Below are positions 3,757 through 26,568 of a stretch of DNA of 64,000 nt, in pieces. The notes below the pieces were generated by a model. That model ran no database searches. It was not told the DNA's origin and saw only the letters and a program-made list of their open reading frames with translations. The position numbers were made by a program, and so were the translations under genes. This DNA is from Spirochaetota bacterium (lineage in GTDB: Bacteria > Spirochaetota > Brachyspiria > Brachyspirales > JACRPF01), in NCBI GenBank assembly GCA_016214035.1, contig JACRPF010000004.1, positions 1 through 64,000 on the forward strand. Direction: 5' to 3'. Every line of letters starts with the position of its first letter. The first letter of the stretch is position 1.

Positions 3757-4587
3757 ATGAGCGCGACAAATCTTATTTCCGGGAACGGATTGCCCATTGA
3801 AGCCGTCTATATCATGAGCGGCGCGGATTTTCCGGCGATTAACCGTGACATCGACTGGCGTGAACTCCCCTGTCTGCTCGTGGCAGAGCGTATCGGTGCG
3901 AGCTGCCGCGTGCGGTTCAGTGACGGCCATTCGCAGATCTACCGTTCCGGCGAGGCGATGATAATACCGCCCTATACGCGGCACCGGACGGAGATCATCG
4001 CATGCACGATCCCCGAGACAACGACCTATTGGGTCCATATCAATTATACCGTCGCTGGACTCCCGCTCTTCCCGGCCATTCCGCTGCCTGTATGGGCAGA
4101 CCGGAGGTGCGGCAGAACGCTGGGACGCATCGCAGGATCGTTCGCCGCAGTCGGCGGCTCATCGCTTGCCGACAGCGCCCGTATCGGCGAACTGAGCTAT
4201 CAGCTCCTGTCCGCACTGCTGTCGCTCGCTGATATAAAAAAACGGGTACTGGGTATGGTCACCGAACGGCTTCGACTCGCGCCGGTGTTCGCCTTCATCA
4301 GCGATCATCCGGGACGCACGGCATCCGTCGATGAGCTTGCATCTGTCATCGGGCTTTCGCCGTCGCGGTTCGCATCGCTTTTTCATGCGGTAACCGGCAC
4401 GACACCGATTGAATATCAGCGCACCGCACGCATACGCAAAGCGTCGGTGATGCTCCTGCAGGGAAAAAAGCTCGCTGAAATAGCGCGCACCACCGGATAC
4501 GGAACACCGTTCAGTTTCAGCAGGGCGTTCAAAGCTGTTACCGGCGCAAGTCCTGCGGCGTATAAGCAGCGGCATCAATCCATGTGA
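3757..4587 (+). CDS. AraC-family transcriptional regulator
   Basis: 276 residues from the ATG at 3757. A longer frame reaches back to 3553 but overlaps the decarboxylase gene out of frame and has a non-protein-like N-terminus, so it is rejected. The first 170 residues resemble a cupin-type sensor (GEAMIIPPYTRHRTEI around 65-82) that would bind a small sugar or oligosaccharide. The last 100 residues are a clear pair of AraC helix-turn-helix motifs, ending in the hallmark GYGTPFSFSRAFKAVTGASP. It has no ribosome-binding site and a TATACT box ends 6 bases before the ATG, so the mRNA may be leaderless. It lies next to a secreted polysaccharide-type protein and within reach of two lyase operons whose promoters carry tandem repeats of AraC-site design; that it controls them is inference. 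Confidence 0.88.
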   Translation: MSATNLISGNGLPIEAVYIMSGADFPAINRDIDWRELPCLLVAERIGASCRVRFSDGHSQIYRSGEAMIIPPYTRHRTEIIACTIPETTTYWVHINYTVAGLPLFPAIPLPVWADRRCGRTLGRIAGSFAAVGGSSLADSARIGELSYQLLSALLSLADIKKRVLGMVTERLRLAPVFAFISDHPGRTASVDELASVIGLSPSRFASLFHAVTGTTPIEYQRTARIRKASVMLLQGKKLAEIARTTGYGTPFSFSRAFKAVTGASPAAYKQRHQSM

Positions 4588-4695: not shown

Positions 4696-6147
4696 ATGCA
4701 TCTCAAACCATTCAGGCTGCTGATTGCCTGCATCGCGTGCTTCGGTTTATTCCCGCTCGACCGGAATGATGTCGTCACCTTTAGCGATAAAGAAGAGAAG
4801 AAGGAATCGCTGACGCGGATATCCGCGGCCGTAGAAAACGACATCATCACCGCCGTCTATGCGGTTCCGGAAAACACCGCACTCGGCTATGCGTATGCCG
4901 GCGTGAGTGTAAACCTCACTCCCGATGAGAATGCGAGATCGCTGGTGTTTACGATCCGAAAAGACGCATCGGCTGTGCAGCCTAATCGCATCACGCTCAG
5001 GACCAAAACGGGCAAACGTGCAAAAGTTGATCTTCCGGCATACGGCAGCGTCACCGAAGAATGGAAAACGTTCCGAATATCGCTTGATGATTTCTCACTG
5101 TCACGTAACGACATCGCGTCACTCGCCTCGGCAGGCTTCAGTCTTGCCGGAAACAACACCAAGGACAACATCGACAGCGTATCGGGAACGGTGTGGCTGC
5201 GCGACATCCGGCTTTCCACCGAGACCGCTGCGGCAAAACAGATAGTACCGGACTACGCCTTTCTGTTAAACAGGAAAGCTCCGAAACCAGCCAAGGGTCA
5301 CGCAGGGTGGATATACCGTGAATCGGAAGCCCATATTGAACGTATCAAACGATATAACAAAGAGAACGCAGTACCGTTCCGTATGCTCTTTGTATATGCG
5401 GGGTCATACACGTTCACGCAGAACGGCGGCAGGCTTTCACCGCTCAAAACGGGAATACTGCAGTGGTTCCGCGAACGGCTGCCCGCCGAGACCGCCGTCT
5501 ACGCCACAATAGACGCGAGCGACGCAAAGACGCTCGGATCATATCCGCCTGCCGAACAGGAACGCCTCGCGAAACTCATCGCGCAGGCTGTAGACGATGA
5601 ACCTGCCGCAGCCGGAGTTCACTTCGATATCGAGCCCTACGACATCACGCAGCTGCCGTTCTACATCGCCGCCAAAAAAGCGATGCGTAAACCCGTAAGC
5701 GCGGCATTCGGGGCATGGGATATCCATGTGCTTTCCGTGGTGGATTATCCCGTCCTCATGGCGTACGATATGGCGCACACGCCGGACATATACCGTGCAA
5801 CGGTTGAAAAAGCATGCCGCTCATTCGCTATGGATGCCGATGCCGCAAAGTCATGTTTCTATCTCGGATTCCCCTTTGTCGCCGCGCAGGCGGAATGCGA
5901 ATACCGCATCAACCGCGAAACAGGCGCGCGTGAATCAACAGCATATACGATGGAACAGTATATATCCGCCGCCGTCGATGCATGCCGGGTTATACCGCAG
6001 ATATGCAGCGGCGATCTTTTCGGCGGTGTATCGGTCTGGGCATTTCCCGATGAGAACAAGAAAGGGATAGGGCCTCCGGCTGGGCGCTGGGGGTATTATC
6101 CCAACCACTTGAAAGAATCATGTCTTTCATTACTGAGCAATTTTTAA
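4696..6147 (+). CDS. Secreted protein with CIA30/CBM-like N-terminus and glycosidase-like barrel
   Basis: 483 residues. An N-terminal hydrophobic stretch (RLLIACIACFGLF) fits a signal peptide. Residues about 30-180 form a beta-rich module ending in SGTVWLRDIRLS, the pattern of CIA30/CBM11-like jelly rolls that also occurs in the nearby lyases. Residues about 200-470 look like a TIM barrel with HFDIEPYD near 309, which resembles the acid-containing strand-4 motif of GH18-like and related families, although the full DxxDxDxE is absent. No exact family was recognised; an extracellular carbohydrate-active role is inferred from architecture and from the adjacent AraC-type regulator. The start is supported by GAGG seven bases upstream and by a strong promoter. 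Confidence 0.65.
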   Translation: MHLKPFRLLIACIACFGLFPLDRNDVVTFSDKEEKKESLTRISAAVENDIITAVYAVPENTALGYAYAGVSVNLTPDENARSLVFTIRKDASAVQPNRITLRTKTGKRAKVDLPAYGSVTEEWKTFRISLDDFSLSRNDIASLASAGFSLAGNNTKDNIDSVSGTVWLRDIRLSTETAAAKQIVPDYAFLLNRKAPKPAKGHAGWIYRESEAHIERIKRYNKENAVPFRMLFVYAGSYTFTQNGGRLSPLKTGILQWFRERLPAETAVYATIDASDAKTLGSYPPAEQERLAKLIAQAVDDEPAAAGVHFDIEPYDITQLPFYIAAKKAMRKPVSAAFGAWDIHVLSVVDYPVLMAYDMAHTPDIYRATVEKACRSFAMDADAAKSCFYLGFPFVAAQAECEYRINRETGARESTAYTMEQYISAAVDACRVIPQICSGDLFGGVSVWAFPDENKKGIGPPAGRWGYYPNHLKESCLSLLSNF

Positions 6148-8770: not shown

Positions 8771-11700
8771 TTACTTCAGCGGAACTATCTTTATCCAATC
8801 GACATTCATCCCGCCGCCGCCTTTGTTTATCAGCGTGATCGTATGGTCTCCTTTTATCAGCGGTATGCGAAGACCGCCGTTCCCGGCAAACCATGCGTCC
8901 TGCCAGTCATCTTTCGATGAACTCCAGCCGCCGGTTGAGAGAAACACGAATGCGGCACCGTCCTTCACCGTTTTCCCATCGACAATGACAGCCCGTCGTA
9001 CCGCTTCTTCCGCGGTACAATAACGTATCTGTATTCCATAGGTGCCGTCTTCAGGCACGCTGTATTTCCATGTAACCGAATGCCCGTCATTGTCCCAGAG
9101 ATTGAACGACTTACCCGAATTACCGAGTTTATCGACGATCTTCACCGTGCCGCCTTCTTCAGCAACGAACGTTTCTGCCTCTATCTTCACCGCCTTATCG
9201 AGCATCGGTTTAAAATCATCGCCGAGCACTGCGGCTTTCAGCGGTTCGGTTGCCTGCGGGGCGAAACGCACCACGAGCGTTACCGCACTCACATTAGAAA
9301 GCGCTATCGCAAGCTTACGCATGCCGGCATTTTTGTTCTGATTCGTCGGGTCCGGCGATGTTGCAAGCGGCACGGCGTTCATAACGCTGAAACGCGCATC
9401 AAAAGGCGACCTTATTTCAGCCGTAAGCGCCGCACCGGGACGCGTGAGTACCGCCCGTTTCCCGTCGGGTGTTATCGTTACGGCCGCTTTCGTGTGAGCG
9501 AACCACCACACCGTTGCCGGTTCCGCGGCCTCGATAACATCGGCCACCTCAATGGCTTTTCGCCCGTCAATCAGCGACGCGGTACGTATGACTTTCTTCG
9601 CCTGCGGCCGGTACGCCTCGGTGAGATCCACCGACGCCTGCGCCGACTGCGGCAGCGACTCGAAAACGCTTATTTTCGTAACAGCTTTCTTCAACTGCCC
9701 CGCATCCGCAGACGGGGCGATGACGAGTGTATTATGACCCTCCGGCCGTATGCGGTAGAACTCGTGATGCTTGTAGGAATGCTGATACGATATATAGGTC
9801 ATCCACTCGCTGCCGAGGTCTTCGAAAAAGCGCTGACCGCCGCTGTCGAGCACGAAGCTTCCGAGGTCGTAATGAAAGTGATTGACACCGTTCGCGCCGG
9901 ATTTCAAGCCGATGTAGAGCGCGTTCGTATCCGCCCATGATCCGCAGAGCAGCGCCACTTCGGTCTTGCTGAAATATTTATCGGGAGACACCGATGCCGG
10001 CGTCCGTCCTTCAAGTGATGCATCGAAATACATGAGTTCTTCAGCAGCGCCGGAGATGCGCGCTTTCTCGAACAGATGATAGAGAGGATTTTTGAACTTT
10101 TTCGCGAACCAGAAAAGCTCAGGGAACGATCCCGTTTTACCGGCGCCCGCATCGGCGAAGTTGAACGAATAGCCGCTCGGACCGGTGGTATAGACGGGGA
10201 AATCACCGGTCTTGCAGAAACCGCCGAACGTATCGAGCACGCCGAAATTGGTGCCGAGCGCGGATTCATACGACCCGATCATCGGAATCAGATACTTGAT
10301 TGAATAATGCCAGTAGCCGGGGCCCTCGTACCATGCGCCGTCGGGTTCGAATTCCTCCATCACGGCCTGAAACGATGCGAACGCGTTGGTGATGATATCC
10401 ACGGCGAGATCGGGCTCATCCTCGAACACGGCGAGTGCCGCCACGGTGGAACCGCCGTTACAGACAAAGTTCCAGTTATTGTTGCCGTTCACCCACCACA
10501 CGCTTGGTCCCTTGCCGCGATAGGCCGCCGCGGAATTGGTGAGGCCCAGATTCACGATCGCATTGCGGATGAACTTTTTCTCGTCGTCGCTCCATGCATT
10601 ATAGAGCCAGTCATACGCCACGCCGAATGCGTGCATCATCTCCGCGGTGTCGAGATAGTGCCGCGGGTTCCAGTCCTTGAATTTTCCCGCCTCCTCAAGT
10701 TCCGCCCAGAGACGCTCCTTGTATTTTGCGTCACCGTCAAGCAGATACATCATACCAAGCGTATACGCGCGCCCGAGCACGCGGCGGCTTGTCGTCAGGA
10801 GCCTGAGTCCGTCCGGTGTCTCATACTTCGATGTTGCTTCACCCAGCGCCTTATCAGCGCGCGACTTGAGCATGGTGTACGACTTTTTCGCCGTTTCATT
10901 CCCGGCGAGATCTTTCTTTATACGTGCTACATCTGCATCGGTGATGAGCATCCGCGGATGATTTTTCCGCACGAGCGCCATGAGTGCTTCACGTGACGGC
11001 GGCGGTATAAGCACTTTGCGCGATCTCACCGATCCGAACGCGCCCTTGACCAGCCGTATATCGTCGATATAAAGCACCGTATCCGGATTCGGTGTTATCC
11101 CCCACCCGGACGCATTCAGCGATATTTTGTCTATCTTCTGAAATCCGGCGGGTTCGCGGGATTTTCCCATGTCTGAAAAGAGTATGGTCACTTCCTGCCA
11201 TCCCGTCCAATCGACAGTGAAGTTCTTTGCAAAGTAGGAAAACTTTGCGGAATCAGTTCTTGAATCAAGGATAAGCGCAATATCCTGCCGCGTGTTCTTT
11301 TCAGAATACACCCGGAACGATATCGCGTTATATCCCGTCCAGTCGTGCAGTATTTTCGCGGTGTTTACCGACGTGTTTTTCGGCATATCTGCCCAGCGCA
11401 GGGACGCTTTGCCCTGTTTCACATTTTTTTCAGACCGTTCGCCGCCGGCCCACGCATCGTTCTCAAAACCGAATGTCGCAAGCGTATCCGCGTCAAGCCC
11501 GGGCGCCTCGACAGCTTCCCCGAAATCAAGCGATGCCAGATGCACCGTTGTCTTCGCGGTACTCGTAGAATACGCCCATACCACGCAGAATGCGGCATTG
11601 TCCGGAGCTTTCGCTTCCCATTCGCATGGAGTGAATGCGCGATCGGCTTCAAATATCTTTGAGACTTCGGGAATGATCTTCTTTTTATCTTTATCCTGCC

Positions 11701-12019
11701 AGTTCATATAGAGCGCCACTTTTCCGCCCATGATGACGGCCCGCTCCCGATAGGTTTTCCCCGGGGTCACCGGAACCGTCTGTGCGAACCCCACACCGAC
11801 CTTGGGATTATCGTCGGTTATCTTCACCGCGCGTTTCCCTTCAACGGTTACGATTTCTATCCTGGTGGTTGTCCCGTCAGGTGCGGGAGTATAGGTCCAT
11901 CCGTCCGGAGTCCCGTTACCATCGGCATCGGTGAATGCGGCGTTGGTGAATGACACGGCAGCATCCGCAGCAGACAAAGTCCCGGCAATAATACAAAGCG
12001 TTATACAGCGGAACAGCAT
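8771..12019 (-). CDS. Large secreted heparinase II/III-type polysaccharide lyase with three binding modules (lyase 1)
   Basis: 1082 residues with a signal peptide ending in LSAADA. Module order: jelly-roll A (about 21-165, starting NAAFTDADGNGTPDGW), CIA30-like module B (about 180-335, ending DTVLYIDDIRLV), an alpha/alpha toroid with NHPRMLITDADVARI, NGNNNWNF and EGPGYWHYSIKY, a heparinase II/III-type beta domain with NHFHYDLGSFVLDSGG near 709, and a C-terminal CBM6/35-like module C ending in GGGMNVDWIKIVPLK. It should cleave uronic-acid-containing polysaccharides (alginate, heparin-like or similar) by beta-elimination outside the cytoplasm; the substrate is not readable. It is a close paralogue of the gene 17 bases upstream and shares its transcription unit; GGAGAG precedes the ATG. 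Confidence 0.85.
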   Translation of the reverse strand: MLFRCITLCIIAGTLSAADAAVSFTNAAFTDADGNGTPDGWTYTPAPDGTTTRIEIVTVEGKRAVKITDDNPKVGVGFAQTVPVTPGKTYRERAVIMGGKVALYMNWQDKDKKKIIPEVSKIFEADRAFTPCEWEAKAPDNAAFCVVWAYSTSTAKTTVHLASLDFGEAVEAPGLDADTLATFGFENDAWAGGERSEKNVKQGKASLRWADMPKNTSVNTAKILHDWTGYNAISFRVYSEKNTRQDIALILDSRTDSAKFSYFAKNFTVDWTGWQEVTILFSDMGKSREPAGFQKIDKISLNASGWGITPNPDTVLYIDDIRLVKGAFGSVRSRKVLIPPPSREALMALVRKNHPRMLITDADVARIKKDLAGNETAKKSYTMLKSRADKALGEATSKYETPDGLRLLTTSRRVLGRAYTLGMMYLLDGDAKYKERLWAELEEAGKFKDWNPRHYLDTAEMMHAFGVAYDWLYNAWSDDEKKFIRNAIVNLGLTNSAAAYRGKGPSVWWVNGNNNWNFVCNGGSTVAALAVFEDEPDLAVDIITNAFASFQAVMEEFEPDGAWYEGPGYWHYSIKYLIPMIGSYESALGTNFGVLDTFGGFCKTGDFPVYTTGPSGYSFNFADAGAGKTGSFPELFWFAKKFKNPLYHLFEKARISGAAEELMYFDASLEGRTPASVSPDKYFSKTEVALLCGSWADTNALYIGLKSGANGVNHFHYDLGSFVLDSGGQRFFEDLGSEWMTYISYQHSYKHHEFYRIRPEGHNTLVIAPSADAGQLKKAVTKISVFESLPQSAQASVDLTEAYRPQAKKVIRTASLIDGRKAIEVADVIEAAEPATVWWFAHTKAAVTITPDGKRAVLTRPGAALTAEIRSPFDARFSVMNAVPLATSPDPTNQNKNAGMRKLAIALSNVSAVTLVVRFAPQATEPLKAAVLGDDFKPMLDKAVKIEAETFVAEEGGTVKIVDKLGNSGKSFNLWDNDGHSVTWKYSVPEDGTYGIQIRYCTAEEAVRRAVIVDGKTVKDGAAFVFLSTGGWSSSKDDWQDAWFAGNGGLRIPLIKGDHTITLINKGGGGMNVDWIKIVPLK

Positions 12020-12036: not shown

Positions 12037-15000
12037 TTATTTAAGCGGCACCAGTTTAATCCAGTCGAGATTTGCACCGCCGCCGCCGATATTTATCGCG
12101 GTAATGGTATGCTCTCCTTTCTCGAGCGACAATCTGACACCTTTGCCGTCAACCGACAGCCAGACTTCCTTCCAATTATCCTTGTCGCTGCTCCAGCCGC
12201 CGGTGGGCGGAAAATAGAACTGCGATTCCTCACCCGGCACGCGCTTCCCGTCGATGCTGAATGCGCGGACTGCCGGATCGGTTTCCCCACAGTATCGGAC
12301 CACGATGCCGTAATCACCGGCTACCGGCACTTCAGCTTTCCAGTTGATCGCGTGTTCGGCGTCGTCCCAGAATTTTATCGACTTGCCTGAATTGCCAATC
12401 TTACCGGTAATCTCGGCATTGCCGCCCGTCTGTCCGGTGAACGATTCCGCTTCAAAGATAAGCGCATCACCGCCCACCGTAAATCCCGCCGGTATTTCTG
12501 ACATAAGCGGTTTATATGCCGAACCGCCCTGCATCGGCCGGAACACCGCACGGATGGCAACGGCACCCTTAGCATTCGGCATATGTACCGTGATCTTTCG
12601 CACGCCGTTATTTTTACCCTGCATCGGCGGATTGGGTGATGACGGCAGCGGCTTTGCCTCGAGCACTTCGAATGCAGCTCCTGCAGGTGATTCCAGCGCA
12701 AGCGATGCCTTCGCAGTACCGACCGTCATCGTTGCAGTCCGTTTATCCTTAGAAAGAAGTACTTGCGCCTTCGTATGCATGAACCACCAGAGGTCGGCTT
12801 CTGCATCGAGCACTATCTCATCCTCAATACGCACCGCGCTTCTCCCTTCGGCAAGCGATAGCGTTCGAACGACTTTCTTTGCGTCCGGATATGCCGCACT
12901 CATATCGAGCACCGCGCGGGCACTCTGCGCATTCGTATCGAACGACAGTACTTCCGATTCAGCCTTGGCGTTCTGATCGGGACCGTCCGTCGGATTGATG
13001 AGTATGGTATTATGCCCCTCGGCGCGGAGTCGGTAATACGTCCAGCGCGCGCCGCCGAAGTAGCCTGGCATGTTGTAATTATCGGAACCGAGATCTTCGA
13101 TGAAACGCACGCCGCCCGAATCGACAATGACGGAACCAAGATCGAGATGCCCATGGCTCACGCCGTTCTTTCCGCCCTTGATGGCGGCAAAGAGCGCAGT
13201 CTTGTCGTCCCAGGAACTGCGCATCGAGATGACCGCCGCTTCATCGCCGCGGAAATACCGGTCGAACGCTATCGCCGGCGCCGTGGCCGGGAGCGACGGA
13301 TCGTAGTATAGAATATTTTCCGCCGCATTTCCCGGACGCTGTGATTGATACCAGGTATAGAACGGATTTTTCAGTTCACGCGAGAACCAGTTGAACTCAG
13401 GCGCGCTGTACGTACCTGGACGCGCACCGCCCGCATCGGCAAAATTGAACGCACCGCCCGGGCCGGTGGTGTATATCGGGAAATCGGCCGTTTTCATGAA
13501 ACCGGGAAAAGCCGCGGTTATGCCGAAATTGGTGCCGAGCGCGCTTACGAGCGACGCAAAATGCGGTACAAGATATTTTATCGAATAATGCCAGTAACCG
13601 GGGCCCTCATACCAGTTGCCGTCGGGTTCGAACTTCGGCAGCGTCGTCTGTATGGATGAGAACGCTTCGGCAAGCACTCCGGCGCAGAGATCGGGCTCTT
13701 CATCAAGGAGGGCCAATGCGGCGATTGCCGCACCGCCGTTGCAGACGAAATTCCAGTTATTACCGCCGCGCGTCCAGCCGTAGTTGGGCCCCTTGCCGCG
13801 ATACGCGTCGGCGGAGACGTTCAATCCTTTTTCAATCATCGCGGTGCGTATCACTTTTTTCTGTTCATCGCTCCATGACGCATACAGCCAGTCATAGGCG
13901 ACGGCGAACGCCTGCATCATCTCGCCGGTGTCAAGGAAATGGCGCGGATTCCAATCCTTAAAATTCGCCGCCTCCTCAAGCTCTTTCCAGAGCCGGTCCT
14001 TGTATTTCACATCACCGTCAAGCACATACGCAAGCCCGAGCGTATATGAACGCACCAGCACGCGGCGGCTTGTGGCAAGCAGACGCAGCCCGTCAGGTAT
14101 TTCATAGATGGAGACTTTCTGACCGAGCGTATCGTCAGCACTTTTGATGAGCAAGGCGTAAACGTTCGTCATGCGCGCATCCTCATGTACGATCTTTTTC
14201 ATACGCGGGATATCGGCAGCGGTGAACAAAAGCCGCGGATGCTCACGTTTCAGCAATGAAAGATACGTTTCTTTTGATGGCGCCGGCAGGCGTACTTCCT
14301 TCGGCACATACGCAGCTTTGAGTGCCGATGCCGGAGCGGTGCCTTTCTTCAGACTGATCGCATCCAGATGCAGTATGGACTCATCCATCGCCGTTCCTCC
14401 CCAGCCGCCGACATTGAAGGATATCACATCTATTTTCTGAAATCCCACCGGATCGCGCGAACGGTTCATCGCGGAAAACGGAATGCGCACCTCTTTCCAT
14501 CCGGCCCAGTTCACCGTGAACGAATACGAAAAATATGAGAATTGTTTCGGATCGCTGCGCGACTCGAATATGACGACGACCTGTTCACCTGTCTTTTTCT
14601 CCGAATATATCCACAGCGACATGGCCTCGAAACCGCTGAGGTCGTGGCGTATCTTCGATGTGCTCACGGCCTTTATCTTCGTATGATCCTTCCAGAGTCC
14701 TGCGTACTTACCCTCTTTCACGCTCGCCGTCGATAGTTCTATGCCGCTCCAGGCTGCCGTTTCAAACCCGAGTACCGCAGCGAACTCTTCCTCGCTCACG
14801 GTTTCTGCCGCCACCGCCTGAGTCTTCGCCGTCAATTCGGTACCCGTATCCTCAACCTCCGCCGATGCAAGATAGAAATCCGATGTTCCGGTTGATGTTG
14901 TGTATATCCATACGAGACAGAATGCCGCACCGGCCGGCGCCTTCTCGGCATACTCATATTCCTTGAAAGCGGATGTAAGCGCAACATCCTTCGAATGCTC

Positions 15001-15354
15001 AGGCTTGATCATTTTTTTATTTTCATCATGCCAGTTCAAATATATCTTCAGCCCGCCGCTCCCCTTCATGCGTACCGTCTGGCGGTAAAAATGCCCCGCG
15101 GTCACCGGTATCATCTGCCCCACACCCACACCGACCTTAGCATCAGTATCGACGATATGAACTGCATTCACGCCGTCCGCGGCGGCCATCTCGATCTTTG
15201 TCGTTGTCCCGTTCGGAGCCGGCCGCAGTTCCCAATTATCGGGAATGCCGTCGCCGTTACCATCCGTAAGCGTCGGGTTTTTGAGGATATTATCGCCGGC
15301 GGAGAGCGTTGCGGCGAGTATGACAAATAATACAAGCATCGTTAAATGTCGCAT
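12037..15354 (-). CDS. Large secreted heparinase II/III-type polysaccharide lyase with three binding modules (lyase 2)
   Basis: 1105 residues, same module order as its neighbour: signal peptide (ending near LSAGD), jelly-roll A (NPTLTDGNGDGIPDNW), CIA30-like module B (VLGFETAAWSGIELS to ILHLDAISL), toroid (REHPRLLFTAADIPRM, RGGNNWNF, EGPGYWHYSIKY), heparinase-type beta domain with GVSHGHLDLGSVIVDSGG near 734, and C-terminal module C ending GGGANLDWIKLVPLK. The two lyases differ throughout, so this is an old duplication, probably with different bond or length preference. GGAG lies five bases before the ATG, and the predicted transcription start is about 40 bases upstream, driven by the promoter and tandem repeats at 15402-15466. 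Confidence 0.86.
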   Translation of the reverse strand: MRHLTMLVLFVILAATLSAGDNILKNPTLTDGNGDGIPDNWELRPAPNGTTTKIEMAAADGVNAVHIVDTDAKVGVGVGQMIPVTAGHFYRQTVRMKGSGGLKIYLNWHDENKKMIKPEHSKDVALTSAFKEYEYAEKAPAGAAFCLVWIYTTSTGTSDFYLASAEVEDTGTELTAKTQAVAAETVSEEEFAAVLGFETAAWSGIELSTASVKEGKYAGLWKDHTKIKAVSTSKIRHDLSGFEAMSLWIYSEKKTGEQVVVIFESRSDPKQFSYFSYSFTVNWAGWKEVRIPFSAMNRSRDPVGFQKIDVISFNVGGWGGTAMDESILHLDAISLKKGTAPASALKAAYVPKEVRLPAPSKETYLSLLKREHPRLLFTAADIPRMKKIVHEDARMTNVYALLIKSADDTLGQKVSIYEIPDGLRLLATSRRVLVRSYTLGLAYVLDGDVKYKDRLWKELEEAANFKDWNPRHFLDTGEMMQAFAVAYDWLYASWSDEQKKVIRTAMIEKGLNVSADAYRGKGPNYGWTRGGNNWNFVCNGGAAIAALALLDEEPDLCAGVLAEAFSSIQTTLPKFEPDGNWYEGPGYWHYSIKYLVPHFASLVSALGTNFGITAAFPGFMKTADFPIYTTGPGGAFNFADAGGARPGTYSAPEFNWFSRELKNPFYTWYQSQRPGNAAENILYYDPSLPATAPAIAFDRYFRGDEAAVISMRSSWDDKTALFAAIKGGKNGVSHGHLDLGSVIVDSGGVRFIEDLGSDNYNMPGYFGGARWTYYRLRAEGHNTILINPTDGPDQNAKAESEVLSFDTNAQSARAVLDMSAAYPDAKKVVRTLSLAEGRSAVRIEDEIVLDAEADLWWFMHTKAQVLLSKDKRTATMTVGTAKASLALESPAGAAFEVLEAKPLPSSPNPPMQGKNNGVRKITVHMPNAKGAVAIRAVFRPMQGGSAYKPLMSEIPAGFTVGGDALIFEAESFTGQTGGNAEITGKIGNSGKSIKFWDDAEHAINWKAEVPVAGDYGIVVRYCGETDPAVRAFSIDGKRVPGEESQFYFPPTGGWSSDKDNWKEVWLSVDGKGVRLSLEKGEHTITAINIGGGGANLDWIKLVPLK

Positions 15355-15401
15355 AAATTCTCCATGTGGTTGAAGACTGCATAACTATACAGTGTTTTTA
15401 C

Positions 15402-15431
15402 AGTATAGTAAATCAGCGCCGGTACTGTCTT
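15402..15431 (-). promoter_or_regulatory. Promoter of lyase operon 1 (lyase 2 and lyase 1)
   Basis: On the minus strand AAGACA (15426-15431) is followed after 18 bp by TATACT (15402-15407). The same hexamers at the same 18-bp spacing occur before lyase operon 2 (22859-22888). The -35 overlaps the proximal copy of a tandem repeat, as expected for an activator-dependent promoter. Confidence 0.65.
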
Positions 15432-15466
15432 GGAAGAATGCGACATTTGTTGGAGGAAAAAGACAT
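15430..15466 (-). promoter_or_regulatory. Tandem 17-bp repeats, putative AraC-family activator site 1
   Basis: Read on the plus strand, TTGGAAGAATGCGACAT (15430-15446) is followed three bases later by TTGGAGGAAAAAGACAT (15450-15466): 13 of 17 positions agree and the period is 20 bp, two helical turns. The proximal copy touches the -35 hexamer. A near-identical pair precedes lyase operon 2. Direct repeats 20-21 bp apart overlapping the -35 are the classical arrangement for AraC-family activators. Confidence 0.6.
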
Positions 15467-15516: not shown

Positions 15517-16167
15517 CTAATATTTCAATGATATTACGCAACTATTTGGAAACAACTGAATCGTTACAGGGTTATTTTTTTCACTATAATCGCTTAAAGT
15601 ATAATACCCCAAGACAGATAACACCGGAGATACAATAAGTGATGACAATATCAATAGCCCATAAATACCTGCAGTTTCATAATATGGCTTACTATTTAAG
15701 AAGGTATAACTTAATGTAAAAAGCAGCGCTGATGGTATTAAAGGAAAAACATATGCGCCCATCGACGGCACAAGTTCAATACTATTTTTTGAAAAAAATG
15801 AAACACCTGTGGCGCATCCGACAGGCGCACCTATAAATATTCCATATGCCATTCCCTGTGGTTTATCTGGACCGGTAAGTGCCCAACCAATAAACATAGA
15901 TGCTGTAGTAGTGATGCAAGCACACCAAATTGCCTCTTGTGTAAGGGAAAAAGATGATAATCCATCATAAAAATTGGTTGCTTTAAGATTACTATTACCC
16001 ACTTTTGATTCATTCAAAATAGTACACGAACTTGATTTTAATATCATGTCAACAGTAAATATTTGGCTATACTCATTCGCCATATTCGCCTCTGCGAATA
16101 ATGGGTAAAATAGAATGCAAGACAATATTCCGACCGTAATGTTTATGACTTTCCTTTTGTGTAGCAT
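15517..16167 (-). CDS. AT-rich orphan exported/membrane protein, function unknown
   Basis: 216 residues from the ATG at 16167, chosen because MLHKRKVINITVGILSCILFYPLFAEA is a typical signal peptide; a start nine codons earlier (16194) would put polar residues ahead of it. Neither start has a ribosome-binding site. After the signal peptide and a polar stretch of about 60 residues there are about four hydrophobic segments with glycine-rich turns (MFIGWALTG, GIFIGAPVGCATG, ALLFTLSYTFL, GLLILSSLIVSPVLSVLGYY). No family was recognised. The gene is much richer in A/T, with many AAT, ATA and AAA codons, than the GC-rich genes on both sides, which suggests recent acquisition. It sits between the two lyase operons on the same strand. 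Confidence 0.55.
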   Translation of the reverse strand: MLHKRKVINITVGILSCILFYPLFAEANMANEYSQIFTVDMILKSSSCTILNESKVGNSNLKATNFYDGLSSFSLTQEAIWCACITTTASMFIGWALTGPDKPQGMAYGIFIGAPVGCATGVSFFSKNSIELVPSMGAYVFPLIPSALLFTLSYTFLNSKPYYETAGIYGLLILSSLIVSPVLSVLGYYTLSDYSEKNNPVTIQLFPNSCVISLKY

Positions 16168-16355
16168 ATTATTACATACAGTGTAATCCAGCATTTCCGC
16201 CGCGTCAAGCCGACTTTACAGCATTTCTATCATATAATAAATCGACGATTCGATAAGTTCGCCGACCATATACTCGCTGCTATGCCTTGCTTATCGCCAT
16301 ATAACAGCTGCTTGATTTCATGAAAATGGTGTTTTTAACCTAGGCAGTTGTAGCA

Positions 16356-16488: not shown

Positions 16489-17742
16489 TTACCTGAATGT
16501 CTCGAGTGCCCGTTTAATCGCATGGAGACGTGCTGTTCCTTCATCGAGCGTGGGACAGATCCAGCCGCCTTCGACGAACTCGCTCCAGTTATATATCAGA
16601 ATGGATTTTACTTCGGTATTTTTCGGATTATCGATAACCCATTGACATGCGGACCTGACATTCTCCGTGAGTTCATCGGCAGTGCCGCGGGTAAACCATG
16701 CTCCCTCCGCGGGCCTGTCGTATAACGGGAATCGCGTCACCTGTGCGGGCCGTGAATCCCAGCCGTCGTTCACCGGCGGAATCACCTGCCGCCCCGCCGA
16801 CCTGCAGGCATCGCGGAACGCCGCATTCGCTTCAGCCAGTTTTGCGTAAGGATACTCAATTGCTCTTTTATCCCTGTTCTTCCGGATCTCCGGATGTATC
16901 GGCGCACCGTATCCGCTCACGGCATCATAACCGATATCATCCAAAAATCTGCTGTTCTCGCCGCCGAGCCATATCATGGCTACGTAATAGGGTTTGCCCA
17001 GTCCCGCTGCCTCGCACCTGCGGGATAGTTCCTCAAAACCCGCTTTCATATCGACATAGGTCTTGAAATATGCAAACTTCTGAGCGCCGAATATAAATAC
17101 CAGCGGCCGATTACCGAGAACCTTCTGGTAATTTTGCTCCCTGAAGAGCCGCACAAGCTCATCCGCGGTTGTTTTCCATTCCGCAACGGGGTCCCAGGTG
17201 CTGTCAGCGCCTTTTCCGGCGGCGTTCGCAGCTCCGGGATTATCGGGGTCATACTCCTTCTGCTTCGGGCCGAGCAAATGGTCCTGCAGAAATAGACAGT
17301 AGTTCAATCTGTCCTTATACTTACTCTTCCGATGGAATGACGGCAGATCCGGCGTATACCATTTCCATTTCGGATCATTTCGCAGATCCCTCGGCCAGAC
17401 GCGGTAGTTCACCGCCCAGTAATCAAGTCCCGCCGATGCTGCATACAGAATATCCTGATCCATCACGTTCTGCTGATATTCATCCATCAGGATCTTTCCG
17501 TCACGGACATCGGCATAGTACGGAATACGGGTATGCCATTGCGGGTCTTCCAGATAGCGTGTCTGCTGAAACTCCAGCTTCCACGCCGACCATCGGATGA
17601 CACCGGTGAGTATTCCTTCTTTTCCCGCGGCATACGCAACAGTTCCGATAATAAAAAACGCGATGACTACGGCGCAACAGACTCTTCTACGGTATGCCGC
17701 AGTGAAACGCGGTGACTCGCCGAATCCATTGCATTTTTCCAT
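16489..17742 (-). CDS. GH99/WbsX-like glycosidase-type secreted protein
   Basis: 417 residues from the ATG at 17742, chosen because GGGG lies five bases upstream; a longer frame from 17778 would overlap the previous gene by 20 bases. A transmembrane or signal segment (VCCAVVIAFFIIGTVAYAAG, about residues 21-40) is followed by a barrel-like domain. The segments ASAGLDYWAVNYRVW, RPLVFIFGAQKF and IYNWSEFVEGGWICPTLDEG match the WbsX / GH99-like pattern, in which the latter block is usually NxWNEWxEGxxxxP. Proteins of this group act as endo-glycosidases or are found with glycan loci; the substrate here is unknown. It is the last gene of lyase operon 2, starting 16 bases after the deacetylase stop codon. 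Confidence 0.7.
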   Translation of the reverse strand: MEKCNGFGESPRFTAAYRRRVCCAVVIAFFIIGTVAYAAGKEGILTGVIRWSAWKLEFQQTRYLEDPQWHTRIPYYADVRDGKILMDEYQQNVMDQDILYAASAGLDYWAVNYRVWPRDLRNDPKWKWYTPDLPSFHRKSKYKDRLNYCLFLQDHLLGPKQKEYDPDNPGAANAAGKGADSTWDPVAEWKTTADELVRLFREQNYQKVLGNRPLVFIFGAQKFAYFKTYVDMKAGFEELSRRCEAAGLGKPYYVAMIWLGGENSRFLDDIGYDAVSGYGAPIHPEIRKNRDKRAIEYPYAKLAEANAAFRDACRSAGRQVIPPVNDGWDSRPAQVTRFPLYDRPAEGAWFTRGTADELTENVRSACQWVIDNPKNTEVKSILIYNWSEFVEGGWICPTLDEGTARLHAIKRALETFR

Positions 17743-17758
17743 ATCGCCCCAACGCGCC

Positions 17759-19414
17759 TTACCACATAATATCTGCAAGCCCGTCCTTTACCGGACGCCG
17801 TTCACCGTTATAGACGATCTCGGTAACGCCTTCGGGTACTTTCAGCGTCAGCGGGAATGTCCGCAGATACGGATGCAGCCAGGGACGTGTCATGGTGAAC
17901 GTCACTCCGTTCGCATCTTTTTTGCCGCCGTCAACCTGCGTGTTCATCCGCATCCAGCGCCAGACGTACACCTCGCCCGCCGTTGTATACCAGATATCCG
18001 GATTGCCTTCAAGCGAGGCCAGCACCTTTTCCAGCGTAGCCATGCCGCTCCCGGCCAATTCATAACTGTGCCCCCATACATGAAAGACAAGCCCGTCCTT
18101 CACCGTAAGTTCCTTGAACCGCGCGCTGATACGCTCCGCGCCGGTATTGAAATGAAAATCCGGCGTATACCCGTACGGATTCTTTATCTCATCGATATAG
18201 TTCGGTCCCGTTGCTGTGCCCCGCGCCGACCATATACCGGCATTCGAAACACTGCGCACCACGTAATCACCCTGCTCGTCGTATGCGGGTGAATAATTGA
18301 ACGGATAACCGAACGATATGACCGGATGTCCTACCATTCCTTCAAGAAGCCGACGCATATTCGCTGTCTCGGCGTAGCATCGTTCGTAGCCGGAAAGATA
18401 ATACGCGGGATGATTCCATGAATGATTGCCAATCTCCATGCCGAGCGCTTCAAGTTCGGCGAGTTTGGCGAGCATCTGCGAGTTGCGGTTCATGAAGAAC
18501 GTGCCGCGGAACCCGTGTTTTTTCATCGTCTCGGCAAGCGGCATGTCCATATCCCTACCGTCGTCCCATGTCGTGAAGATGGTATATTTTTTACCGTAGG
18601 GAAAAACTGCCGGCGATGGAGCAGCTCCGCCGGAATATCCGACCAGCGTAATCGTTCTCGTCTCCGTCTTTGCCGTGTCTATGGTCTGGATAAGTTCTCC
18701 GCCGTTCTCAACGGGCATTGCCGGAACCGCTTCCACCGGATGCCGTTCGATGATAACATTCGCCGCCGTACCGTCCACGGTTATGCGTTCCGCTGCGGAT
18801 GACAGAAACAAATATGCCTGAGTTCCCGCCGGCGTCGTGAATGAACGTTCGCCGCATTGCCATGTTGCCGATACTTTTGCGGGAAACGATGCGCGTATCC
18901 GTCCCGGTGCAAGCGGAACCGGCAATGTAACCGAGCCGCCGTCCACCGGACAGTCGAGATACCAGCGCATATTCGCTGTCGCTGATACATCAAGCGGTTC
19001 AACGCTTACCGAGCGAATGCCGGCGGTATCCTGTCCGCGCTGTGAGCTTTTGCGATACAGCATACCGCGTGACTGCATGGCCGTGAACATGGCGAACGAT
19101 TGCTTCCCCGATGTGTTGATGTAGTAACAATCCACAAGCGGTGTGCGGCCCGCGACAAAGCCGATATGCTGGTTCTTTGCACCGCCGGTCTTTCCGTTGA
19201 AATCAACGGTCACCTTCCATGCGCCCGCGGGAAGTTCTGAAGCGAATTCCCAGCGGACTTCATCTTTCACGCCCATGGCGGCGGTAAGATAAACCGTATC
19301 GCCTTCTTTATTCTTTGCACCACCCGTTGCGGATGCGGCGTCAAGCGTTATCGTTTCGCCGAGCGCCAGCGATGTTAACATCATCCCTGCCGTCAGACAC
19401 AGCATCAAGTTCAT
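17759..19414 (-). CDS. Secreted polysaccharide deacetylase (NodB domain) with N-terminal beta module
   Basis: 551 residues with a signal peptide ending LALGE. Residues about 20-240 are beta-rich with no recognised family. The NodB homology domain starts near 275: TWDDGRDMD supplies the catalytic and metal-binding aspartates (TFDDG type), and GNHSWNHP (near 330) the two metal-binding histidines; FGYPFNYSP and HVWGHSYEL are the later motifs. It should remove N- or O-acetyl groups from a polysaccharide outside the cytoplasm. The last 70 residues form another beta segment. Its ATG overlaps the stop of lyase 3 by four bases (ATGA), so the two are translationally coupled, which suggests deacetylation and lyase action on the same glycan. 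Confidence 0.85.
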   Translation of the reverse strand: MNLMLCLTAGMMLTSLALGETITLDAASATGGAKNKEGDTVYLTAAMGVKDEVRWEFASELPAGAWKVTVDFNGKTGGAKNQHIGFVAGRTPLVDCYYINTSGKQSFAMFTAMQSRGMLYRKSSQRGQDTAGIRSVSVEPLDVSATANMRWYLDCPVDGGSVTLPVPLAPGRIRASFPAKVSATWQCGERSFTTPAGTQAYLFLSSAAERITVDGTAANVIIERHPVEAVPAMPVENGGELIQTIDTAKTETRTITLVGYSGGAAPSPAVFPYGKKYTIFTTWDDGRDMDMPLAETMKKHGFRGTFFMNRNSQMLAKLAELEALGMEIGNHSWNHPAYYLSGYERCYAETANMRRLLEGMVGHPVISFGYPFNYSPAYDEQGDYVVRSVSNAGIWSARGTATGPNYIDEIKNPYGYTPDFHFNTGAERISARFKELTVKDGLVFHVWGHSYELAGSGMATLEKVLASLEGNPDIWYTTAGEVYVWRWMRMNTQVDGGKKDANGVTFTMTRPWLHPYLRTFPLTLKVPEGVTEIVYNGERRPVKDGLADIMW

Positions 19415-22400
19415 TTTGCCGTCCCTGCACCGATATCTTCAAATTCAAACGACTGCACATATGTCTCGCCGGTGTTCGAACTCCACGAATATATCCATGC
19501 CTTGCAGAACGCGGCGTTTGCCGGAGACTGCTCCGAATACTCCGTGAGCTTGAACGCATCAGTTCCGCCGTCAACGCGTTTTGACATTTCCTTGCCGATC
19601 TGTTTTTTATCCGCGTCATACCAGACGAAATAGAGCGCTATCGGCGCGCCCTTGAGCATCGCCCGCTCGCGGTACATCCTTCCGGGTTTCACCTCGAGCA
19701 TCTGCTGCAGTCCCACGCCGTTCTTCTTGTCGTTGTCGACGATATGCATCGCCGGTTTGCCGTCAGCTGTGACACGTGTTATTTTCGTCGTGTCGCCGTT
19801 CGGCCCCGGGCTCATCAGCCAGCCTTCCGGTTTGCCGTCATTGTCGGCATCGTCGAATGACGGATTGGCGTTCAGGATGTCTTTTCCCGTTGCGGGGACG
19901 ACCTTTATCCAATCCATGTTCATGCCGGCCATTGCGCCGACGAACGTGAGCGTATGTTCGCCCGCGGCGAGATTGAAACGCATGCCGCCCGTTTTCGATG
20001 CGAGCCACACGTCGCGCCAATTATCCTTGTCGGAACTCCAGCCGCCGGTCTCGGCAAAACAGAAAAGATTCGTCCCCTGCCCCGCCGGCTTTCCGTCGAT
20101 ATAGAGTGCGCGCATCGGAGCGTCGGCGCTGCAGTAGCGTAGCCGTATGCCGTAATCGCCCGCGGACGGCGCTGAGAACTTCCACGACAATGCATGCCCC
20201 GGTTCATCCCAAAGCTTGAACGATTTTCCCGAATCGCCTATTTTTGTAACCACTGCCACTTTACCTTTCTGCTCATCGGTGAAATCCTCCGCCTGAATGA
20301 CGATGGCCTTTGCCGAATCGGGTGTAAACACACCGAGATTTTCGGCGCGCCCTTCATTATCAACTTTTCCCGGTAACGCAAACCCCGCTGGATCAACCTT
20401 GCGAATCAGGAGTGTGACGACGGCTTTCTTCACCGGCTTTTCAAGATCGATGCCGATGCGCAGCGGCTTGGACGCCTTATATCCCATATCCTCATCGATG
20501 ATATCTTCACGGAACGTAACCTTCTCGCCGCCCGCGTCGACCTTCACCTCAACCGCCTGCTTGCTGTTATACACGATGAACGTGTCGGGTGCGGTCTTCA
20601 GCCATTTGTCATATGTGAGTACCGCGGTGCTGAAGCTCATCGGCCGATCCGCCTCGAACGTATCGCTTACGGATACGGTGATTTCCGGCGCGCGTTTATA
20701 GATGAAGGTCCGTTTCAATCCGGTGATGCCGTCCACTTTATCATACGCGCTCGCATAGTCGATGACGAACCGGTCTGCATCATCGCTGAACTTTGCCTCG
20801 ACTATCTTCGCCATGGCGTCGCGTCCTGGCCGCTGCTGAACGCCGTCAATGACCGGCACTGAATGACCGAACGAACTTAAGGCCTTGCTGTCATACCGCT
20901 TCGCACTGAACGTCCGCGCGGTATAGACTTCGTTCCCCGGGTCAATTATCAGCGGCAGTTTCGCGCCTTTTGTGGCGATGACGAAGGAACCCAGATCGTT
21001 GTGATTATGCTCCTCAGCGTTATGACCGCCTTTGAACGATGCGGCGAAGGCGTTCGGCGCGTCGGGGTCTTTCGGACGGCAGTTTAATATCCCCGCCTCT
21101 TCAAAGAAGTCCCTGAAACTGTCGCCCGCTTTCGGTGCGAACTTCGGATACGGTTGTGCGGTGTAGTATATCGATGATGGAAAAAACGTGAGCGCGAACG
21201 ACTGCGGATCGCCGCCGTTAAGCGGTATCCCTTTCGCCTGCCATGTGGGCATCTGTGCCGGATCGTACATGCGGTCCATGAAATACAATATCCAGCTCGA
21301 AGGCTTCGCCGTCGGCCCGCAGTCGGCATATGCCGGATACAATCCGTCGATGAGTTCCATCCGTTTGCCGAAACGGCCTATTGCCGCCACCTTGGCATTG
21401 TTGAACCAGTCGATCTTTCCCTTTGTTGCTAAAGAAACCCCTGCTGCGATCAGCACAAAATTGCCGAAACCGTACCCCCAATAGCCGATGCCCTCGGAAC
21501 AGTAACCGTCATCCGTCATACCGTGCAGAAAATACGGCAGACCTATCTCGGCGCCGTGTACAAAAAGCGCCCGCTCCTCGGCGCTGTCTATCACCGCAAG
21601 TGCGGCGAGCACCACCCCGGCGTGGCACACCGCATTCCAGTTATTATTGCCGTTCATCCACCAGAAACCGCCGCGGTCCTCACCGGTGATAAGCCGCGGT
21701 TTATACGCATTGAATATTCGCCGATAGAGTTCATTCGTGAGCGTTATGCGCGTTTCTTCCAAAAGCTTTTCACCGAGCATCCGGTATGTACCGGAGAACA
21801 CGAGCGCGCGCGCTGCCGCCGACAAATCAACCTCAATTCGTTTACCGTTATAATTATCAAGCCTTCCGTCATGCGCCGACAGCGTCCATGATTTATCTGA
21901 CGCAATACTTTTCACCGCCTCTTCCACCGCGGCAATAAAACGCCCCTTATTCTCGATGCACTCGGCCAGGAGAACATCCCTCAGATAACCGGTGCGCCTG
22001 CCCATCATACCGTCGCCGGTGCGCTTGCCCGATCGCGTATAGGCGAGATAGTCATCGTCGCTCCAGGCAGTCATGCCGGATTTGAGCTGACGCTCGCCGT
22101 TCTCGACAATCTGTTTCGCCTTTTCAGGGTCAATACTCTCCCATGTCTTCCGGTCGCTCACCGGCGGCAGCAGTACCGCCTCCGGTTTTTCCGGAAGCAT
22201 GGCGGCAATCTCTTTCACCCGGCTCATGTCTGGCATCGGCGTCTTTTTCAATTCCAGTTTCGATTCGGCTTTCATTTCCGGCATAGCTCCTTCGACAAAG
22301 CGGATGTCGTCAACCCAGATCACGGACTCGGGATTCGGCTTTAGCCCCCACCCGTCGGCGGTAATCATGATGGAATCGATCTGCTTCCAGCCCGCAGGAT

Positions 22401-22797
22401 CGCGGCTTGCGCTGAATTTTTTGAACGGTATTTTAATCTCTTTCCATCCGTCCCAGTTCACTGTCAGCGGATAGCTGTAATAGGAGAATACCTTCGGGTC
22501 TTTGCGTGAATTAAGGATGAGCATGAGCGATTCGCCGGTATTCTTTTCGGAAAACATCCAGAGCCGGAGTTCATTATATCCGCTCCAGTCATGGTCAATC
22601 GCATCAATCGATATTGATTTGTTCTGCAGATGATCTTTCCAGAGGCCGGAGCTCTTCCCCTCTTTCACGTTCTTCTCCGACAGCTCGATGCCTTTCCATC
22701 CCGTTTTTTCAAAACCGAGCAATGCCTGAAAATCAGGCGAAACGGCCGAGAACACACTTGACGCCGCAAGTAGTGCGGTAAAAATGATGCGCATCAT
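19411..22797 (-). CDS. Large secreted heparinase II/III-type lyase with rearranged binding modules (lyase 3)
   Basis: About 1128 residues. GAGG lies just before the ATG-ATG pair at 22797/22794, which starts a clean signal peptide (MMRIIFTALLAASSVFSA); a start ten codons earlier at 22827 is possible. Module order differs from lyases 1 and 2: CIA30-like module B comes first (LGFEKTGWKGIELS to VIWVDDIRFV), then a toroid (MNGNNNWNAVCHAG, SEGIGYWGYGFGNF), the heparinase-type beta domain with EEHNHNDLGSFVIATKG near 597, module C (FTDEQKGKVAVVTKIG to MNMDWIKVVPA), and jelly-roll A at the very C-terminus (NPSFDDADNDGKPEGW), the module that is N-terminal in the other two. The catalytic part is also the most divergent of the three. 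First gene of operon 2. Confidence 0.84.
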   Translation of the reverse strand: MMRIIFTALLAASSVFSAVSPDFQALLGFEKTGWKGIELSEKNVKEGKSSGLWKDHLQNKSISIDAIDHDWSGYNELRLWMFSEKNTGESLMLILNSRKDPKVFSYYSYPLTVNWDGWKEIKIPFKKFSASRDPAGWKQIDSIMITADGWGLKPNPESVIWVDDIRFVEGAMPEMKAESKLELKKTPMPDMSRVKEIAAMLPEKPEAVLLPPVSDRKTWESIDPEKAKQIVENGERQLKSGMTAWSDDDYLAYTRSGKRTGDGMMGRRTGYLRDVLLAECIENKGRFIAAVEEAVKSIASDKSWTLSAHDGRLDNYNGKRIEVDLSAAARALVFSGTYRMLGEKLLEETRITLTNELYRRIFNAYKPRLITGEDRGGFWWMNGNNNWNAVCHAGVVLAALAVIDSAEERALFVHGAEIGLPYFLHGMTDDGYCSEGIGYWGYGFGNFVLIAAGVSLATKGKIDWFNNAKVAAIGRFGKRMELIDGLYPAYADCGPTAKPSSWILYFMDRMYDPAQMPTWQAKGIPLNGGDPQSFALTFFPSSIYYTAQPYPKFAPKAGDSFRDFFEEAGILNCRPKDPDAPNAFAASFKGGHNAEEHNHNDLGSFVIATKGAKLPLIIDPGNEVYTARTFSAKRYDSKALSSFGHSVPVIDGVQQRPGRDAMAKIVEAKFSDDADRFVIDYASAYDKVDGITGLKRTFIYKRAPEITVSVSDTFEADRPMSFSTAVLTYDKWLKTAPDTFIVYNSKQAVEVKVDAGGEKVTFREDIIDEDMGYKASKPLRIGIDLEKPVKKAVVTLLIRKVDPAGFALPGKVDNEGRAENLGVFTPDSAKAIVIQAEDFTDEQKGKVAVVTKIGDSGKSFKLWDEPGHALSWKFSAPSAGDYGIRLRYCSADAPMRALYIDGKPAGQGTNLFCFAETGGWSSDKDNWRDVWLASKTGGMRFNLAAGEHTLTFVGAMAGMNMDWIKVVPATGKDILNANPSFDDADNDGKPEGWLMSPGPNGDTTKITRVTADGKPAMHIVDNDKKNGVGLQQMLEVKPGRMYRERAMLKGAPIALYFVWYDADKKQIGKEMSKRVDGGTDAFKLTEYSEQSPANAAFCKAWIYSWSSNTGETYVQSFEFEDIGAGTAK

Positions 22798-22858
22798 GGA
22801 CCTCAGGAATTCGCTATGGCGTTTCATGAACTGCCTGGCCGCGGGGATAGACCCGATC

Positions 22859-22888
22859 AGTATACCAAAATAGCAGCCGCACTGTCTT
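22859..22888 (-). promoter_or_regulatory. Promoter of lyase operon 2 (lyase 3, deacetylase, WbsX-like)
   Basis: Minus-strand AAGACA (22883-22888), 18 bp, TATACT (22859-22864): same hexamers and spacing as the lyase operon 1 promoter at 15402-15431. The spacer sequences differ, so the conservation is not simple recent duplication of the whole region. Confidence 0.65.
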
Positions 22889-22924
22889 GGAAAAATGCGA
22901 CATGTGGTTGAAGAAAAACGACAT
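22887..22924 (-). promoter_or_regulatory. Tandem 17-bp repeats, putative AraC-family activator site 2
   Basis: Plus-strand reading: TTGGAAAAATGCGACAT (22887-22903), four bases, TTGAAGAAAAACGACAT (22908-22924); period 21 bp. The proximal copy differs from that at 15430-15446 at one base, and the distal copy matches its counterpart at 14 of 17. Same position relative to the -35. Confidence 0.6.
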
Positions 22925-25545: not shown

Positions 25546-26568
25546 TCATGTCAATTGAGTGATGTCTCCGCCCACCTCAAGCCCGCCATGCATCCCTTCG
25601 CCGGAGTATATCTCCTTGCCGCGGTCGGTAAACGTCACCATTATGCGCGATGACATGCTTTCCGCGATACGTCCGGTCATAACCCCGTCTGCCGGAGCCG
25701 CGAGCGCAGCACCCGCACCGCGTTGTGCGACGATATGGAGGGCGCACCGGCCGTCGGCGACAGTACACCGCACTTCTGCCGAAGAGACCGCTATTTCCTT
25801 GAGACGTGCTCCGGTATAGCTCGCAAAGCGGTACAGTTTTCCCCGCAGCAGCAATCCGGCTATGCATCCCGTAAAGCGGCCGTTGAGCCAGGGTATCTTC
25901 GCCAGTGAGAATGTAAGCGATGTCTCCGGTTCAGGAAAGTGATTTGTCTGCATCCACACCCATGCCGAGGGGAATGAACGCCCCCAATCCTTCTCGCAAT
26001 AGCCGCGGCCGTCGTTCATATCCACATAGCGGTCATCGATAGATACAGTGCCTTCGAGCGCATGGTCGAGACTCAGAACGCCGTGATAGCATTCCATGAA
26101 CGGCGCGAATGCGTACGGCCCCATGATACCCGGCGCGAACAGTGTCACCGGCCATGGCGTCGTATGTTGCAACGAGACATCTGCGGCGAATGAAAACCGG
26201 TCCGCCGTGACGGCGCATTTCACATGATCGCGCGTGAACCGGTTCCTGCCGATACGAATATCGAACCGCAGCGGGTCGTGCTGGAAATCATTGATATCGT
26301 AACGCTCGTAATGTGCGCGTACACCGGTACCATCGAGTATCTGAATGAACGCATGCGCAGTGCGCTCACCGTCACCGAGCGCGATGCCGGGAATAACCGC
26401 AAATCGATTTTTGCCGGTGCTGTCGACCAGCTTATAATACCAGCCCTCGAAAAAACGCCGGCGCTTTCCATAACCGTGATAGAGTGCGTCGTCCCATATG
26501 CGCCGGATATAATACGGCAACAGCCGGACTGCGCCCATACCGCGAGCATAGCTGCATAATGCATTCAT
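25546..26568 (-). CDS. Tocopherol cyclase-like protein
   Basis: 340 residues, start supported by AAAGGG seven bases upstream of the ATG at 26568. The family marks are RRFFEGWYYKLV near the N-terminus (about 37-48), GYCEKDWGRSFPSAWVWMQ (about 189-207) and a beta-rich remainder. In plants and cyanobacteria, tocopherol cyclase closes the chromanol ring; the bacterial relatives outside cyanobacteria are uncharacterised, and there is no tocopherol pathway gene here. It has no signal peptide. It sits between recR and dapF, with 30 and 49-base gaps. A lipid- or isoprenoid-modifying role is inference only. Confidence 0.78.
   Translation of the reverse strand: MNALCSYARGMGAVRLLPYYIRRIWDDALYHGYGKRRRFFEGWYYKLVDSTGKNRFAVIPGIALGDGERTAHAFIQILDGTGVRAHYERYDINDFQHDPLRFDIRIGRNRFTRDHVKCAVTADRFSFAADVSLQHTTPWPVTLFAPGIMGPYAFAPFMECYHGVLSLDHALEGTVSIDDRYVDMNDGRGYCEKDWGRSFPSAWVWMQTNHFPEPETSLTFSLAKIPWLNGRFTGCIAGLLLRGKLYRFASYTGARLKEIAVSSAEVRCTVADGRCALHIVAQRGAGAALAAPADGVMTGRIAESMSSRIMVTFTDRGKEIYSGEGMHGGLEVGGDITQLT

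Follow-up and report, generated by a model that had tools for sequence, protein, structure and literature searches.

The two lyase operons of the 64,000-nucleotide window (the whole stretch of DNA analysed here) start from promoters whose tandem 17-bp repeats we read, with a probability of about 0.8, as operators of a family-specific regulon of at least 13 promoters, under an AraC-family class II activator with a probable uronic-acid-polysaccharide inducer. The reading is built on the boxes themselves, their fixed position with respect to the -10, their distribution over the genome, their conservation at orthologous targets and the content of the genes behind them, from which we infer the AraC family of the binding protein, activation rather than repression, and the inducer.

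Both sites lie on the minus strand, at 15401-15466 (site 1) and 22858-22924 (site 2), and each holds the 17-bp box ATGTCNNNTTYYTYCAA twice as direct copies:

15450..15466, minus strand: site 1 distal box, ATGTCTTTTTCCTCCAA
15430..15446, minus strand: site 1 proximal box, ATGTCGCATTCTTCCAA, sharing two bases with the -35
15402..15431, minus strand: site 1 predicted core promoter, -35 AAGACA (15426-15431), 18 bp, -10 TATACT (15402-15407)
22908..22924, minus strand: site 2 distal box, ATGTCGTTTTTCTTCAA
22887..22903, minus strand: site 2 proximal box, ATGTCGCATTTTTCCAA, sharing two bases with the -35
22859..22888, minus strand: site 2 predicted core promoter, -35 AAGACA (22883-22888), 18 bp, -10 TATACT (22859-22864)

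Read toward the genes, site 1 is ATGTCTTTTTCCTCCAA-CAA-ATGTCGCATTCTTCCAA-GACA-N18-TATACT, with a period of 20 bp, and site 2 is ATGTCGTTTTTCTTCAA-CCAC-ATGTCGCATTTTTCCAA-GACA-N18-TATACT, with a period of 21 bp. Within the window, ATGTCNNNTTYYTYCAA is matched exactly by these four boxes and nowhere else, and tolerating up to two mismatches added two matches, a chance-level number. The sequences match the single promoter design that a sequence-only reading had described for the two operons (AAGACA, 18 bp, TATACT, tandem 17-bp repeats at a 20- or 21-bp period); its printed consensus, TTGRARRAAWRCGACAT, fits the boxes except at position 12, where the box at 15450-15466 has A in place of C. Its 18-bp spacing between -35 and -10 is true of both window sites, but over the whole set the spacing is mostly 17 or 18 bp. 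The transcription starts of the two sites are predicted from promoter sequence. The site 1 -10, together with a second TATAGT, falls within a 26-bp imperfect inverted repeat (15384-15409; ACTATACTGTAAAAACACTGTATAGT on the minus strand), which could be either a second operator or a chance palindrome.

The genes behind the two sites, with starts taken from mechanical ORF calls, are the following:

12037..15354, minus strand: operon 1 gene 1, a 1105-aa lyase with Hepar_II_III_C and DUF4962 domains
8771..12019, minus strand: operon 1 gene 2, a 1082-aa paralogous lyase, 47% identical to gene 1
19411..22827, minus strand: operon 2 gene 1, a 1138-aa heparinase II/III-like lyase (8r6z family, E 9e-35)
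17759..19414, minus strand: operon 2 gene 2, 551 aa, with a polysaccharide deacetylase domain
16489..17778, minus strand: operon 2 gene 3, 429 aa, with a weak WbsX-like domain
15517..16194, minus strand: possible last gene of operon 2, 225 aa, no family

The closest solved structure to the first lyase of operon 1 is the PL35 chondroitinase 9o3q (E 2e-74), and the membership of 15517..16194 in operon 2 is uncertain, since 294 bp separate it from the preceding gene. Elsewhere in the window, the gene at 25546-26568 encodes a tocopherol-cyclase domain (E 4e-21), unexpected next to diaminopimelate epimerase and transporter genes.

A scan of the whole 5.2-Mb genome with the pattern formed by the four window boxes, a check proposed together with the sequence-only reading, returned 11 exact matches and, allowing one mismatch, 35; the reversed-pattern control gave 2 at the same tolerance. 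Among 26 fetched single-box matches outside the window, seven, from six distinct promoters, had a partner box exactly 21 or 23 bp away and one had a partner at 31 bp, whereas the background rate predicts about 0.1 partners at 19-23 bp; as the query consisted of a single box, the spacing of the second box represents an independent test. Two profiles, R1 from nine tandem promoters of this genome only and the wider R2 from eighteen, brought the tandem promoters of this genome to 13, two in the window and 11 outside it (C2:71957, C19:54065, C21:227801, C16:274954, C1:368363, C4:96328, C22:64741, C5:28632, C16:188565, C1:98158 and C21:117925). With the same profiles, a relative of the same family but of another genus (G001) showed eight clear sites and a weaker ninth. 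Six of the G001 sites were recovered by R1, and these matches are independent because G001 was excluded from its training, while C5, C16b, C1b and several G001 sites had trained R2 and owe their good R2 scores to its construction. Across 391 other members of the phylum, a single match, weak and partial, passed 1e-4 in the profile search, the E-values being rough owing to a shortened calibration. Around lyase homologs in 36 named loci, no site was found outside the window, and none came up when two of the genomes carrying those loci were scanned whole. We attribute to chance the weak matches at C18 (two copies of a repeat), C22:108951, C12:193669 and C19:168633. A further weak box pair, at C19:238762 (L180, about 1501-1541), has a good TATACT and precedes a DHDPS-family gene that could be a keto-deoxy-sugar aldolase; it is a possible catabolic member of the regulon.

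The architecture of the sites is strict at some positions and relaxed at others. All 21 sites have a distance from box to -10 of 21, 22 or 23 bp, and the period of the boxes is 21 bp in 13 of the 21, 19, 20 or 23 bp in six and 31 or 32 bp in the remaining two. GTC occupies box positions 3-5 in all 42 boxes and CAA positions 15-17 in all 21 proximal ones, with looser sequence between the blocks, so that the box is bipartite, its TGTC and TCCAA beginning 11 bp apart; the first two bases of the -35 are poor, AA or AT for TT. Three promoters (L123, L132 and L133) combine the 23-bp period with a variant core, with GACC in the -35 and TACMTT as the -10, and perhaps form a sub-class of the regulon.

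Five orthologous targets retain the site in both this genome and G001, with protein identities of 69% for the transporter, 56% for the GFO/IDH/MocA protein, 58% for a 562-aa protein, 69% for a beta-helix protein and 55% for PL8. Base-by-base comparison of four of these pairs shows 24-26 of 34 box positions to be identical, against 7-10 of 17-18 positions in the linker to the -10 at the same targets. The spacing also follows the locus: in both genomes the boxes of the PL8 promoters stand three turns apart (31 and 32 bp), and those of the 562-aa protein keep a 23-bp period. The two PL8 promoters (L124:11927-12002 and, in G001:C142, L288:8826-8874) were also seen to combine the extra helical turn between boxes with a degraded -35. 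Box conservation, locus-wise spacing and the fixed 21-23 bp to the -10 give strong evidence that the repeats act as working operators and that the proximal box needs a fixed place against the polymerase.

This conservation also bears on whether the window promoters are alike merely because a lyase gene was duplicated together with its promoter. The first genes of operons 1 and 2 are indeed distant paralogs (30% identical), and the linkers before their -10 agree at 10 of 18 places, but the same promoter stands before unrelated PL8, PL11, transporter, esterase and oxidoreductase genes and before orthologs in another genus. Unrelated genes behind the same promoter refute duplication for the promoter set as a whole, and for the window pair we regard it as scarcely credible. 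Boxes that outlast their linkers at orthologous targets and the recurrence of one design before unrelated genes uphold the earlier suggestion that the repeats are selected and not copied.

The first genes behind the sites outside the window in this genome, and the genes behind the G001 sites, are:

C19: PL11 rhamnogalacturonan lyase, plus a beta-helix protein
C21a and C4: beta-helix proteins, one with binding modules
C21b: PL8 lyase
C16a: heparinase II/III-like lyase
C2: solute-binding protein fused to a permease, then a second permease
C22: GDSL esterase
C1a: GFO/IDH/MocA oxidoreductase
C5, C16b and C1b: three large proteins without clear catalytic family
G001 sites: transporter, beta-helix, GFO/IDH/MocA, heparinase II/III, PL8 and others
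One G001 site: sugar-isomerase-like TIM barrel, then two oxidoreductases

Targets without a recognised family include first genes of 562 and 724 aa. The regulon does join lyases, as had been predicted for a small lyase regulon, but it is wider than that and includes an ABC transporter, an esterase and oxidoreductases. The outcome named in advance as speaking against the prediction was that other polysaccharide genes and related genomes would lack the boxes; boxes were present before such genes and in G001. At the C2 site the solute-binding protein and the ABC permease form one 1005-aa chain (L118:8891-11908) under the regulon operator, and a 687-aa permease whose N-terminal part is long comes next.

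The AraC half-site is TAGC-N7-TCCATA, and the box described here, TGTC-N7-TCCAA, is of the same build. At araBAD of Escherichia coli, the araI1-I2 pair consists likewise of 17-bp bipartite direct repeats with a 21-bp period, in the same orientation to the promoter and with the promoter-near half-site overlapping the -35; the differences lie in the A-box (TGTC here, TAGC there), in the B-box (TCCAA here, TCCATA there) and in the targets, which here are many and scattered, none adjoined by the regulator gene. The sites show three sequence marks of an AraC class II operator of the araI1-I2 type (direct repeats, a bipartite box and a proximal box on the -35), and in these features and in the period the AraC-family activator geometry proposed from the window is borne out. 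I1 and I2 adjoin the polymerase site, and AraC-type motifs overlapping the -35 have been documented (PMC8151288). For the AraC-family rhamnose regulators of Bacillales, Bacteroides and Enterococcus, the predicted operators are direct repeats of 21-bp periodicity before carbohydrate-use genes (PMC3870299); the repeats are alike, whereas sequence and taxa differ, and several lyase families are concerned here instead of a single sugar pathway. CdhR and GbdR of Pseudomonas are AraC-family activators with direct-repeat half-sites about two turns apart, CdhR binding upstream of the promoter (class I; PMC5806209), in contrast to the class II overlap of the proximal box with the -35 observed here.

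On this model an AraC-family activator would bind as a dimer, each subunit on one 17-bp box, with one helix-turn-helix placed on TGTC and the other on TCCAA, and the proximal subunit, set against a poor -35, would recruit sigma-70 RNA polymerase by class II activation. Such recruitment would be made possible by the position of the proximal subunit, which would abut a -35 with poor first two bases. As inducer, a breakdown product of uronic-acid polysaccharides is probable, given that the common targets are lyases of unrelated families and one sugar importer. The 23-bp spacing of three promoters is out of phase with 21 bp and counts against the AraC-activator model.

Other proteins could bind such boxes. 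LytTR- and OmpR-type response regulators are direct-repeat activators that likewise bind near the -35, and one of them might be the true ligand; their boxes, however, are about 10 bp long, and a 17-bp bipartite box with strict GTC and CAA about one turn apart fits a two-HTH AraC monomer, in a genome exceptionally rich in AraC-type genes, so that we consider a regulator of this other kind unlikely. Somewhat less likely still is a repressor covering the -35 and blocking RNA polymerase. The overlap of the proximal box with the -35 would suit it, as would a -10 and a spacing near consensus, and since the TATACT cores at 17-18 bp could be fairly active alone, repression keeps a small share of the probability. 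Against it, the box forces a poor -35 (AA or AT for TT), as at activator-dependent promoters, and the distal box is always upstream, even at three turns, like those of polymerase-recruiting activators.

The AraC-family activator therefore being the preferred reading, the choice of its gene has to be made among an unusually dense set, with at least 150 HTH_18 (AraC-type) genes in this genome and at least 150 in G001 (each 5 Mb), out of 225 and 257 first-look candidates, respectively. Two window genes matter here:

3757..4587, plus strand: AraC-type gene named as regulator by the sequence-only reading, unlikely regulator of the window sites
4696..6147, plus strand: its neighbour, an exported-protein gene with a 49% identical pair in G001 and without a box

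The former is of AraC type, shares the contig with the window sites and has a full-length ortholog (G001:C3:95802-96566, 44%) in the one relative sharing the regulon, as do 54 other sampled AraC pairs, likewise present in both regulon-bearing genomes (95 and 98 genes read from the two genomes gave 55 reciprocal pairs). Its pair ranks 40th of the 55 by identity and keeps 15 of 21 residues in the DNA-reading helices, where 30 of the 55 sampled pairs are strictly better kept; a motif so closely kept between genomes would lead one to expect a better-kept protein. No box lies before 3757-4587, the best match of 7.9 bits falling below the 95th percentile of shuffles, and none was found near 4696-6147 in the window search, while the conserved pairing of the two genes suggests a local target. 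With at least 150 competitors, 3757-4587 is a very improbable regulator of the lyase promoters and more likely serves its neighbour. As about 30 of the 55 pairs have well-kept reading helices, orthology alone is insufficient to pick the regulator; none of the sampled AraC genes has a tandem site at its own promoter, so autoregulation links no candidate to the motif. An AraC gene at C4:58.6 kb was set aside, since the one isolated box near it lies outside the class II position and has no counterpart in the ortholog. Also set aside was the AraC gene at C21:221.6 kb, which has no box and stands head-to-head with a beta-helix/GH28 gene; it belongs to a 64% pair, and its distance to a regulon site is about 5 kb in this genome and 14 kb in G001.

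A literature search found no such regulon and no description of the operator sequence; the regulon is new, though of a well-known kind, and does not constitute a new mechanism. Polysaccharide degraders are usually described with one local regulator per polysaccharide locus, and what is notable here is the reach, with one operator at 13 scattered promoters, before unrelated lyase families and a single importer, kept in a second genus. Scattered lyases of unrelated families and a single importer under one operator would fit the sensing of a product common to uronate lyases. We tentatively raise the possibility, at rather less than even odds, that one AraC-type master activator senses a product shared by all uronate-cleaving lyases (e.g., an unsaturated uronide or open-chain ketone) and switches on, in concert, lyases from unrelated families together with one oligosaccharide importer and the oxidoreductases downstream. 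The regulon offers a handle on co-acting enzymes, including the 562-aa and 724-aa targets, on the shared inducer, and on the pairing of one AraC protein with its motif out of a very large set; if the master activator is real, these bacteria would rely on one sensor of a shared product instead of one regulator per polysaccharide.
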